Positions 391 to 9,225 of a stretch of 20,733 bases of DNA are shown here, one piece after another. The translations under genes were made by a program, and so were the position numbers. The stretch comes from a virus, in IMG/VR virus record IMGVR_UViG_3300021335_000115, positions 1 to 20,733 of that record; one strand, 5' to 3'. The notes beneath the pieces are model-generated. The model was not told where the DNA came from, ran no database searches, and was given only the letters and a program-made list of their open reading frames with translations. Each line of letters begins with the position of its first letter. The first letter of the stretch is position 1.

Positions 391-1058
391 GTACACTAGC
401 AGTAGATGCAATTACCAACGCAACTGGTACAAGTGCAGTAACTATTGATTCTTCTGGAAATCTTGCTACTTCTGGAGATGTAACTATTCCAGCTGGCCAG
501 AAACTTGTTGCAGCGGATACAGCTTCGATTTATGCTCCGGGTATGGTAGTTAATATTACACAAAGTGATAAGATTGGAAGTTCAAATCTAGTAGTTAACA
601 CAACATCATATAGTAATAACAAAGCAAATTATCTTCATTTAGGATCAGCATATAATCTTACCGTCACTACCAAGCTAGCTAATTCTTGGATTGTTGTAGA
701 TGGAAGAATTGGTCTAGCTAATACTAATAGCTCACACGGTTACTTTGATATGAAAACATATCATAATGGAACTTTACAGTCTACAAATTGGCTATCTGAA
801 TTAACAGCTCCTGGAGCTACTGGCAACGCTTTACCAGATGGTCTTATTGCTAATCACATGAACAGTTACTCTCAAAACCATATTGAATCTTTTAAAGTAA
901 TCTATCAACCAAATGTTGCAGCTGGAACTGTTTTGAGATTTGATCCACATGTTGCAGCTTGGAGTGGTGGAAATGTGTATATCAATAAACACGCAAGTGC
1001 AGGTAACTACAATCAAATTTCATTTACAAGATTTATAGCTACGGAGATTGCGCAATGA
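387..1058 (+). CDS. Fibre/adhesin-like structural protein with MSTL N-terminus
   Basis: 223 aa. Residues 1-40 hold a shared N-terminal module (MSTLAVDAIT, then a T-G-x-x-x-V-T-I-D-S-S-G-N-L pattern and IPAGQKL) of the type found at the start of many marine phage fibre proteins; the rest is a beta-rich domain with SWIVVDGRIGLAN and HNGTLQS. The next two genes carry an equivalent NG turn, suggesting one jelly-roll-like fold in all three. The C-terminus ends ATEIAQ, resembling the QEIAG end of the following gene. The start lies in an ATGA overlap with the upstream stop, with GGGAGG at 370-375 as the likely ribosome binding site. Probably a tip or decoration domain that touches the host surface; this is inference. 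Confidence 0.6.
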   Translation: MSTLAVDAITNATGTSAVTIDSSGNLATSGDVTIPAGQKLVAADTASIYAPGMVVNITQSDKIGSSNLVVNTTSYSNNKANYLHLGSAYNLTVTTKLANSWIVVDGRIGLANTNSSHGYFDMKTYHNGTLQSTNWLSELTAPGATGNALPDGLIANHMNSYSQNHIESFKVIYQPNVAAGTVLRFDPHVAAWSGGNVYINKHASAGNYNQISFTRFIATEIAQ

Positions 1059-1618
1059 GTACTTTAGCAGTCAATACAATTACAACGCAAACTGGATCAG
1101 ATATCGTTGTTGCGCCAGGTAAAAATCTTTTAGCTCATGGGAATACTATTAACATTTATGAAGCTACTAAAACTGATGTTCAGTCTATGACTGGGTATAC
1201 TTTTGTCGATATAACTGGTCTTTCAATTACTCTTACACCAGTTAGCGCGTCAAGTAAATTCTTAATTCACTATGCTGTTGTAGCTTCAAGTGACTATTAC
1301 AAAACATATATAAATCTTTTAAGAAATGGTACTTTATTGGGAGCAAATGCTGATGGTGCTGGAGATAATAGATATAGAGGAACATCAGCTCATGCAACAG
1401 ATATGACTATTTCCAACGCGCACGGAATAGTTCATAACCACAGTATTACTTTTTTAGATTCGCCTGCAACTACAGGTTCGCTTACATATAAGCTTCAAAG
1501 CGCGGGCAGGGGATCGACTTATGTATCATACATTAATAGATCTGTTCCTGATCGAGCGTTTGGTGAATACGACGATAGAACAGTTTCACGCATGATTATT
1601 CAGGAGATTGCCGGATGA
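1055..1618 (+). CDS. Fibre/adhesin-like structural protein with MSTL N-terminus
   Basis: 187 aa. It starts MSTLAVNTITTQTG and continues IVVAPGKNLLAHG, the same N-terminal layout as the previous gene. From about residue 45 comes a beta-sandwich-like region (GYTFVDITGLSITLTP, then SSKFLIHYAVVA and LLRNGTLLGA), and the protein ends RMIIQEIAG. The Y/F-x-D-I-T-G-L-S-I-T-L-T-P segment is typical of C-terminal domains of marine phage structural proteins of unknown function. ATGA overlaps join it to both neighbours. Its ribosome binding site GGAG (1043-1046) lies inside the C-terminal EIA codons of the upstream gene. Virion role inferred; exact function unknown. Confidence 0.6.
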   Translation: MSTLAVNTITTQTGSDIVVAPGKNLLAHGNTINIYEATKTDVQSMTGYTFVDITGLSITLTPVSASSKFLIHYAVVASSDYYKTYINLLRNGTLLGANADGAGDNRYRGTSAHATDMTISNAHGIVHNHSITFLDSPATTGSLTYKLQSAGRGSTYVSYINRSVPDRAFGEYDDRTVSRMIIQEIAG

Positions 1619-2142
1619 GTACATTAAGAGTAGGTGCAATCCAATCAGCAACTGGTAATACTGCAATTACACTAGCAAATGATGGTACTCCAACCCTTGC
1701 GAGTCCTCCAATCATTACAGCTCCTATTATTCTTTCAGCTAGATCAGGTACAGACATAGGGTCGGCTGGCATTATACCATATAACTTAGTAAACATTGAT
1801 ACTGCTAACGCACATGATACTTCTACGTCACGATACACCTGCCCTCGAGCAGGATACTATGAAGTAGCTTTTAATTACCTGCTTCGTAACTGTACAAGCG
1901 GCCATAGAACAAATGTTCGCAAAAACGGAAATATACAAAGTGTTGGCTGGGACGGCACCAATACTAATAGATCTCTTGTCTGGACTTATGTAAATACCGG
2001 TGAAATAAACATAGCAGCTTCAACTATTGTTCAATGCGCGCAAAGTGATATACTAGATGTTCACTTATATTATATTGCTAATGGTGATATTTACGGTAAC
2101 ACAAATGCTCATAACCAACTAACGATTAAACTATTAAGCTAA
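1615..2142 (+). CDS. Fibre/adhesin-like structural protein, C1q-like C-terminal domain
   Basis: 175 aa, last of the linked fibre-like genes. The N-terminus MSTLRVGAIQSATGNTAITL repeats the shared module. From about residue 60 the sequence looks C1q/TNF-like: PYNLVNIDTANAHDTSTSRY, then a C-P-R-A-G-Y-Y-E-V-A-F strand pattern, NVRKNGNIQS and a hydrophobic C-terminal strand (QLTIKLLS). In C1q-like proteins the 'G-x-Y-x-V-x-F' strand and the following NG turn are characteristic; the match is by eye, so the fold is tentative. The start sits in an ATGA overlap with AGGAG at 1602-1606. No terminator is visible after the stop; gene 13 follows with its own late promoter. Confidence 0.6.
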   Translation: MSTLRVGAIQSATGNTAITLANDGTPTLASPPIITAPIILSARSGTDIGSAGIIPYNLVNIDTANAHDTSTSRYTCPRAGYYEVAFNYLLRNCTSGHRTNVRKNGNIQSVGWDGTNTNRSLVWTYVNTGEINIAASTIVQCAQSDILDVHLYYIANGDIYGNTNAHNQLTIKLLS

Positions 2143-2154
2143 ATTCTTAAAACG

Positions 2155-2162
2155 TATAAATA
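2155..2162 (+). promoter_or_regulatory. T4-type late promoter before gene 13
   Basis: Exact TATAAATA, the late-promoter -10 element recognised by gp55-RNA polymerase in T4-like phages. It starts 32 bases before the gene 13 ATG. With the usual T4 geometry the transcript would start near 2168. The bases that follow (GTATC) belong to the left arm of an inverted repeat. Confidence 0.8.
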
Positions 2163-2193
2163 GTATCGAACAGTTAATTTATGGGATACTATT
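2159..2193 (+). repeat. Inverted repeat overlapping late promoter and abutting gene 13 start
   Basis: Perfect 9-bp inverted repeat: AATAGTATC at 2159-2167 and GATACTATT at 2185-2193, with a 17-base spacer. The left arm overlaps the 3' half of the late promoter. The right arm contains the end of the weak GGGA ribosome binding site (2183-2186) and finishes one base before the ATG at 2194. RNA carrying both arms could fold over the start region. Confidence 0.65.
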
Positions 2194-2940
2194 ATGGCAA
2201 ATCCAACCACAAGAGCAGAACTGATTACGCATTGCCTTCGTAGGCTTGGTGAGCCCGTGCTTGAAGTTAACGTTGACGAAGATCAGTTAGAAGATCGTGT
2301 TGATGAGGCTTTACAGTTTTACCAAGAGTATCATTCGGACGCAATTGTAAAAAATTACTATAAGTATGCAATTACCGCAACTGATGTAACTAATGAGTAC
2401 ATTACTCTGCCTTCCACAATTACAACAGTACAAAGAATTTTTCCAATTGATAGCTCTGCATCAAGCAATAATATGTTTAGTGCACGATATCAATTGAGGC
2501 TTAATGACATTTATGATCTAGGTTTTATTGGATCACTTGCTCATTATGAACAGACACAACAATACCTATCAATGCTTGACATGAAGCTCAATGGCGCAGA
2601 GCAAGTAAGGTTTAATCGAAATTCAAATAGACTTTATATCGATGTAGATTGGTCAGCCGATTTACCAGTTGGTAAGTTTATTGTAGTAGATTGTTATTCA
2701 GTTATAGATCCAACTGCACATGCAGAAGTATATAATGATCTGTTTCTTAAACGATACACAACAGCTCTTATTAAAAGGCAATGGGGTCAAAATCTATCTA
2801 AGTTCGAAGGTATGCAATTACCTGGCGGAGTTCAGATAAATGGTCGGCAGTATTTAGAAGAAGCAAACGCAGAGATTGATAAAATCGAAGAAGAGATGCA
2901 ACTAAAATACGAAGCTATGCCAGAATTCTATGTAGGATAA
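2194..2940 (+). CDS. 13: Neck protein gp13
   Basis: 248 aa, recognised as the T4 gp13 family of head-completion/neck proteins (T4 gp13 is about 309 aa). gp13 and gp14 form the neck complex that closes the portal vertex after packaging and lets the tail join. Family features: the N-terminal helix ELITHCLRRLGEPVLEVNV followed by an acidic E-D-Q-L-E-D-R-V-D-E-A-L helix and QFYQEYHSD, and the C-terminal KRQWGQNLSKFEG with a helical ending. ATG at 2194 is chosen because the family starts this way and GGGA (2183-2186) sits seven bases upstream. It is followed after four bases by gene 14. Its leader has an unusual promoter/hairpin arrangement. Confidence 0.9.
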   Translation: MANPTTRAELITHCLRRLGEPVLEVNVDEDQLEDRVDEALQFYQEYHSDAIVKNYYKYAITATDVTNEYITLPSTITTVQRIFPIDSSASSNNMFSARYQLRLNDIYDLGFIGSLAHYEQTQQYLSMLDMKLNGAEQVRFNRNSNRLYIDVDWSADLPVGKFIVVDCYSVIDPTAHAEVYNDLFLKRYTTALIKRQWGQNLSKFEGMQLPGGVQINGRQYLEEANAEIDKIEEEMQLKYEAMPEFYVG

Positions 2941-6798: not shown

Positions 6799-6806
6799 TA
6801 TAAATA
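6799..6806 (+). promoter_or_regulatory. T4-type late promoter before gene 18
   Basis: Exact TATAAATA in the 77-base gap between genes 17 and 18, 58 bases before the gene 18 ATG. Expected transcript start near 6812. It would drive sheath and tube genes together. Confidence 0.8.
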
Positions 6807-9166: not shown

Positions 9167-9174
9167 TATAAATA
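9167..9174 (+). promoter_or_regulatory. T4-type late promoter before gene 20
   Basis: Exact TATAAATA followed by GTA, 52 bases before the gene 20 ATG and directly after the gene 19 stop. Expected transcript start near 9180, inside the left arm of the hairpin that follows. Confidence 0.8.
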
Positions 9175-9176
9175 GT

Positions 9177-9205
9177 ACTAGAGGCGGTCAAGTATCGCCT
9201 CTAGT
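9177..9205 (+). repeat. Hairpin in gene 20 leader
   Basis: Perfect 10-bp inverted repeat, ACTAGAGGCG at 9177-9186 and CGCCTCTAGT at 9196-9205, around a 9-base loop. There is no T-run after it, so it is not a standard intrinsic terminator. Its right arm overlaps a 12-base palindrome CTAGTTAACTAG at 9201-9212. It may be a 5' mRNA-stabilising stem, a processing site or a weak barrier to gene 19 read-through. Confidence 0.6.
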
Positions 9206-9225
9206 TAACTAGTTAGGGAAATATT

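Follow-up and report, generated by a model that had tools for sequence, protein, structure and literature searches.

What happens to the translation of a gene when its late promoter lies inside one arm of a hairpin and the other arm runs up to its start codon? The gene for the gp13 neck protein raises this question in the window, by which we mean the whole 20,733-nucleotide stretch of viral DNA analyzed here (IMG/VR record IMGVR_UViG_3300021335_000115). We consider it likely that a cis-acting translational gate is built into the gp13 late promoter, as in T4 e and soc. Through sequence comparison we show a conserved plus-strand RNA hairpin, with its 5′ arm over TATAAATA and its 3′ arm over the Shine-Dalgarno (SD) region up to the start codon. 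What we infer is where transcription starts (+1) in this phage, that read-through RNA exists and that translation is affected.

The promoter, both arms and the start codon of gp13 are packed into a few tens of nucleotides (Table 1). The initial annotation had placed TATAAATA, the 9-bp arms, the GGGA and the gp13 ATG, and all of these coordinates are exact. The arms, AATAGTATC and GATACTATT, are perfect 9-bp complements; their stem is short and A+U rich, with two G-C pairs among nine. The promoter-to-ATG gap is 31 nt, and the gp13 ORF is followed by gp14 and gp15 homologues. Late elements of T4-like phages sit at −13 to −6 from the transcription start (PMC1524935). This spacing would put +1 at 2168, in agreement with the start proposed earlier, immediately past the left arm. 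There are seven exact copies of TATAAATA in the window, all on the plus strand, against a chance expectation of 2.33 for both strands. The other six are at 6799, 9167, 10740, 14405, 15188 and 20690, and five of them sit 19–57 nt before an ORF start. Within the window, no promoters for the upstream fibre-like genes were found.

Table 1. Features of the gp13 leader and neighboring genes in the window
Feature	Position	Strand	Remarks
Late promoter element TATAAATA of gp13, T4-type	2155-2162	+	Exact match; position −13 to −6 in T4-like phages (PMC1524935)
Left (5′) hairpin arm AATAGTATC	2159-2167	+	First four bases belong to the promoter; covaries in relatives
Predicted late transcription start (+1)	2168	+	From the −13 to −6 spacing; first base past the left arm
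Hairpin loop, 17 nt	2168-2184	+	
Weak Shine-Dalgarno GGGA of gp13	2183-2186	+	Last two bases inside the right arm
Right (3′) hairpin arm GATACTATT	2185-2193	+	Ends one base before the ATG
gp13 neck protein / head-tail adaptor Ad2, 248 aa	2194-2940	+	PHROG 211, E 1.4e-44; ATG 2194-2196
Upstream co-directional gene, phrog_15750 (unknown function)	1615-2142	+	Last read-through source; stop 51 nt before the gp13 ATG
Tail fibre-like gene, same orientation, upstream	1055-1618	+	PHROG 6942 tail fiber, E 5.3e-13

The stem in the window is, on its own, weak evidence: its placement is unusual, but the stem itself is unremarkable for an A+T-rich window. RNA folding of 2150-2220 gives a minimum free energy of −9.1 kcal/mol with the gp13 stem included, whereas the stem is impossible in 2168-2220 (−2.8 kcal/mol), as the initial annotation had foreseen. 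The bare hairpin element (−7.2 kcal/mol) has a z of −3.55 against shuffles; longer folds are ordinary (z −0.7 and −1.0). There is no window-wide excess of 9-bp inverted repeats with 3–30 nt loops (4, vs. 4.3 in shuffles). When the promoter-ATG spacer was shuffled, a perfect 9-bp arm that overlaps the promoter and has its partner ending at most 6 nt from the ATG arose in 55 of 20,000 cases (~0.3%). The promoter/SD duplex of the window scores −10.4 kcal/mol on the arm-duplex metric also used for the relatives and T4, and was equaled in 17 of 4,000 spacer shuffles. Searched alone, the window matches a covariance model of the hairpin weakly (20.6 bits, E 0.03). None of the 4227 Rfam covariance models matches at the gp13 site of the window at E up to 5, and 17 related loci have no Rfam match whatever at E up to 0.5.

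The relatives settle the matter: judged by covariation, the gp13 hairpin is a real and selected RNA structure. We gathered gp13 loci by protein similarity only, using three different queries plus named phages, and obtained 196 distinct leaders. These are of four kinds: 50 have no TATAAATA within 80 nt, 17 have it 5–7 nt before the ATG, about 48 have a gap of 18–27 nt, and about 80 have a gap of 28–39 nt. Counting as a hairpin any promoter/SD duplex at least as strong as −7 kcal/mol, a cut-off chosen after the data were seen, we find a promoter-overlapping hairpin in 47 of the 79 distinct leaders of the 28–39 nt class. Across these 79 leaders, a phage's own arms form duplexes averaging −9.19 kcal/mol, vs. 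−6.03 when arms are swapped between phages (z −12.8; no permutation among 20,000 reached the observed value). In the 18–27 nt class, used as a control, a single leader of 46 reaches −7, and z is −2.5.

Arm sequences change while their pairing and place stay constant. In the clade to which the window belongs, the two arms are GTATC/GATAC (window), GTCTCAG/CTGGGAC (L002), GTCCTG/CAGGAC (L003), GTCTTATAG/CTATAGGAC (L004) and GTAGTAT/GGTACTAC (L022). When all long leaders were aligned with MAFFT, the register of the right arm was split, so we relied on the swap tests and on an alignment of 14 leaders, picked for consistent register and hence leaning to good stems. In this alignment 90.7% of cells pair, and both sides have changed in 7 of 13 pairs. 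Cells with double-sided change number 19, vs. 6.0 in shuffled and 0–4 in slid alignments. If the partner is slid by 1–3 columns, pairing falls to 36–47% and double-changed pairs to 0–2. Compensatory changes in both arms, put forward earlier as a check on the stem, are thus present across related phages. An exploratory analysis anchored on exact CTATT, covering 32 of the 79 leaders, is weaker than the energy swap, with the observed pairing reached in 8 and 98 of 10,000 shuffles. With the register set by Watson-Crick pairs only, interior non-Watson-Crick positions comprise 23 G.U and 2 A.C (p 2e-5). This asymmetry indicates that the selected object is the plus-strand RNA.

The hairpin is positioned where it could control initiation. 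Among 48 hairpin leaders, the right arm overlaps the SD core in 46 and ends 0–5 nt (median 3) from the ATG. For 71% of pairs in hairpin leaders, the 5′ base lies upstream of the predicted +1 and would hence be lost from late RNA. Opening the initiation site in these leaders is computed to cost 11.2 kcal/mol (median) in read-through RNA and 3.7 once the RNA is late; the window's own values are 9.7 and 3.8 kcal/mol. Read-through RNA from upstream genes would contain both arms and fold, and the initiation site would be hidden. RNA from the gp13 late promoter would start roughly where the 5′ arm ends, lack the stem and be translated. Under this scheme gp13, and perhaps the genes downstream, would be made mainly from their own late transcripts, and the neck gene would be insulated from the variable fibre/cargo module upstream. 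The e/soc logic invoked in the initial annotation, a hairpin present in read-through RNA and lost from late RNA, fits both the anatomy and the comparative test, and this mechanism is probably right.

The initial annotation also had RNA entering from upstream fibre genes. These genes are fibre-like and co-directional in the window, and in relatives the genes at this place are often virion proteins; such genes are usually late. The contrast may thus be between gp13's own promoter and read-through rather than between early and late in a strict sense. A more specific version is that the gate is a late-vs.-late switch, tying neck-protein synthesis to its own promoter while late RNA of the fibre module runs through, and that the promoter-hairpin cassette, repeatedly gained and lost and sharing its design with endonuclease genes, is a portable insulator. 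We put this forward tentatively, as somewhat less than an even bet. If true, the cassette would separate a fast-changing adhesin/cargo region from the conserved neck-tail-head operon.

Upstream gene orientation is consistent with a role in read-through RNA. Wherever a hairpin locus has a clear upstream gene (43 loci), that gene is co-directional; at the 12 loci where the promoter follows a divergent upstream gene, no hairpin occurs (Fisher p 0.0035, and 1.7e-4 inside the long-leader class). A hairpin that acts on read-through RNA would be useless behind a gene pointing the opposite way. The contrast therefore supports the read-through role without proving it; only four of its instances are independent on the well-supported, starred branches of the gp13 tree (seven in all), and phylogeny could explain the pattern. 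Upstream genes at other hairpin loci include many baseplate, fibre or virion proteins, together with some cargo enzymes, e.g., 2OG-Fe(II) oxygenases.

On the gp13 tree, the hairpin appears in at least three separate clades. It undergoes 17 parsimony changes, at least eight of them forced by starred branches. In the window's own clade, 8 of 10 leaders have the hairpin; L006 and L012 of this clade are among the many close relatives that lack it. As the tree reads, the gp13 hairpin is often gained and lost, a recurrent option rather than a fixed feature of gp13. The initial annotation had counted relatives that keep TATAAATA but lack the pairing against its proposal. Many such relatives do exist, namely the 18–27 nt and 5–7 nt leaders and 32 leaders of the 28–39 nt class, yet the pairing is kept, and covaries, in 47 of 79. 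Among sequenced phages, the closest gp13 is about 50% identical, and all 13 reference phages that were checked lack the gp13 hairpin.

Other explanations of the same site can be weighed against the gate. The hairpin might be a promoter-overlapping transcription terminator or attenuator that stops upstream polymerase at the gp13 promoter, so that insulation would occur at the level of RNA synthesis. Such an element would likewise be useless behind a divergent gene, and 8 of the 48 hairpin leaders do have 6–7 T right before the ATG. The other 40 lack a T-run, however, and the coverage of the SD in 46 of 48 would be left unexplained; we regard this reading as unlikely. For the window itself we reject an intrinsic terminator, since there is no T-run, only two of nine pairs are G-C and the terminator scan gave no hit there. 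The eight T-run leaders (L002, L005, L009, L309, L311, L319, L321 and L325), with a hairpin and then the T-run, are terminator-like in appearance, and in these the hairpin may possibly have a second function. Alternatively, the hairpin could be a real RNA structure with another job: in read-through RNA it might be processed by an RNase or affect mRNA stability, and masking of the SD would then be a secondary effect. Other late leaders of the same phages hold unrelated structured RNA, such as a gp20 5′ hairpin that would stay in late RNA, but the gp13 stem is tied to the SD/ATG and to the predicted +1, and a processing site needs neither. This seems to us quite improbable.

Two further readings dispense with RNA structure or with selection altogether. 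A DNA-level dyad, serving as operator for a protein at the late promoter, would account for the overlap with the promoter and has a precedent in I-TevI, where endonuclease operators lie over T4 late promoters (PMC2988022). Yet pairing persists through free variation of the arm sequences, and the 23:2 ratio of G.U to A.C is predicted by plus-strand RNA pairing only; on this asymmetry we reject the operator, to which we give very little credence. Chance complementarity between an A+U-rich promoter and leader in the window would agree with the ordinary number of 9-bp inverted repeats there, but it is hardly credible given that only 0.3–0.4% of spacer shuffles match and that the window belongs to a clade with the hairpin in 8 of 10 leaders.

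The translational gate as proposed here resembles known T4 switches. In the leader of T4 gene e (lysozyme), late promoters lie inside the 5′ arm (PMC3014915). Both e and the window gp13 have TATAAATA in the 5′ arm and a 3′ arm over the SD/AUG, and late RNA lacks the 5′ arm (for gp13, by prediction). On the same metric, the duplex of the upstream e promoter, P2, scores −13.8 kcal/mol, compared with −10.4 for gp13. Unlike gp13, e has two tandem late promoters and is shielded from early transcripts against early lysis; gp13 is a neck gene, and its upstream genes look largely late and structural. The likeness to T4 soc is closer in dimensions (gap 29 vs. 31 nt; duplex −9.5 vs. −10.4 kcal/mol), and both have a single late promoter, but soc immediately follows segF and gene 56, whereas the window gp13 follows fibre genes. 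Homing endonuclease genes (T4 I-TevI and segB; Aeh1 mobE) have a documented switch made of a late promoter and a hairpin that hides the ribosome-binding site (PMC2988022; PMC3014915). This combination is common to their leaders and that of gp13, although homing endonucleases are mobile elements, whereas gp13 encodes a structural protein and keeps its normal position ahead of gp14. In T4 itself, gene 13 belongs to the same head-tail adaptor family and is also followed by gene 14, but neither TATAAATA nor a comparable hairpin occurs in its leader. Wac and the gene 13 SD are separated there by a stable G+C hairpin.

The duplex score distinguishes e P2 and soc from 12 other scored T4 late leaders, which range from +1.1 to −4.8 kcal/mol: nine structural or other late leaders, I-TevII (−0.5), rI.1 (−3.3) and e P1 (−4.8), whose gap is so short that it divides the e stem. 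Switches with most of the stem upstream of the promoter escape this measure, as I-TevII shows: its initiation site costs 12.9–14.1 kcal/mol to open in read-through RNA vs. 0.4 in late RNA, despite the low duplex score.

Gates of this kind are already known, and gp13 would be a further carrier, for which we found no earlier description in the searchable literature. No description of a gp13 switch was found in openly licensed PMC papers, which is weak evidence since most subscription papers fall outside that scope. The promoter-in-hairpin gate has so far been described for a few T4 genes, namely lysozyme, Soc, endonuclease VII and homing endonucleases. The gp13 case would add an ordinary structural gene, with a leader that covaries and is widespread among uncultured marine T4-like phages. 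It also offers a route to finding such gates from sequence data alone, and raises the question of why a neck gene would need protection from read-through.

The promoter-overlapping hairpin is concentrated at gp13 within the contigs searched. A gene-blind scan of viral contigs with the pattern TATAAATAGTC...GACTATT found at least 81 places, and gp13 lies downstream in 44 of the 81 places listed. When whole contigs were searched with the covariance model, the gp13 site ranked first in five (141, 133, 102, 56 and 46 kb), with nothing else below E 0.1. Weaker matches had E 0.26 to 1, and the 102-kb contig has one of these at another place. The gp13 duplex scores −18.8 kcal/mol in the 141-kb contig and −15.4 in the 102-kb contig, vs. 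−9.7 and −8.9 for the strongest other scorable late promoters.

Other genes have similar leaders among the matches listed. SegE-like GIY-YIG genes (PF19835, E 6e-37 and 4e-36) lie behind a like late-promoter hairpin (L129, L152, L102, L141, L148 and L153). In HNH-type endonuclease genes (L105, L107, L120, L161 and L124), the first codons, ATGGACTAT, make the right arm of a promoter-overlapping hairpin, such that the gene's own opening codons ATG GAC TAT belong to that arm. A DUF7207 gene and a ferritin/Dps-like gene (L125 and L113) lie behind a TATAAATAGTCC...GGACTATT hairpin.

Late leaders of a different design also occur. The late leader of gp20 (portal) in the window, at 9167-9225, has a strong hairpin, CTAGAGGCG/CGCCTCTAG, without an Rfam match. 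It starts at about the predicted +1 and would largely remain in late RNA. In the related gp20 leaders examined, the hairpin is kept in place with quite different arms (e.g., GGAGGCA/TGCCTCC, GGGGGAG/CTCCCCC and GGAGGGA/TCCCTCC). Among gp13 leaders, the 17 with TATAAATA only 5–7 nt before the ATG (L015, L018, L019, L033, L035, L036, L038, L040, L042, L052, L054, L059, L060, L062, L073, L074 and L077) would, with T4 late spacing, have their mRNA start at or beside the AUG. This predicts leaderless late messages of a structural gene.
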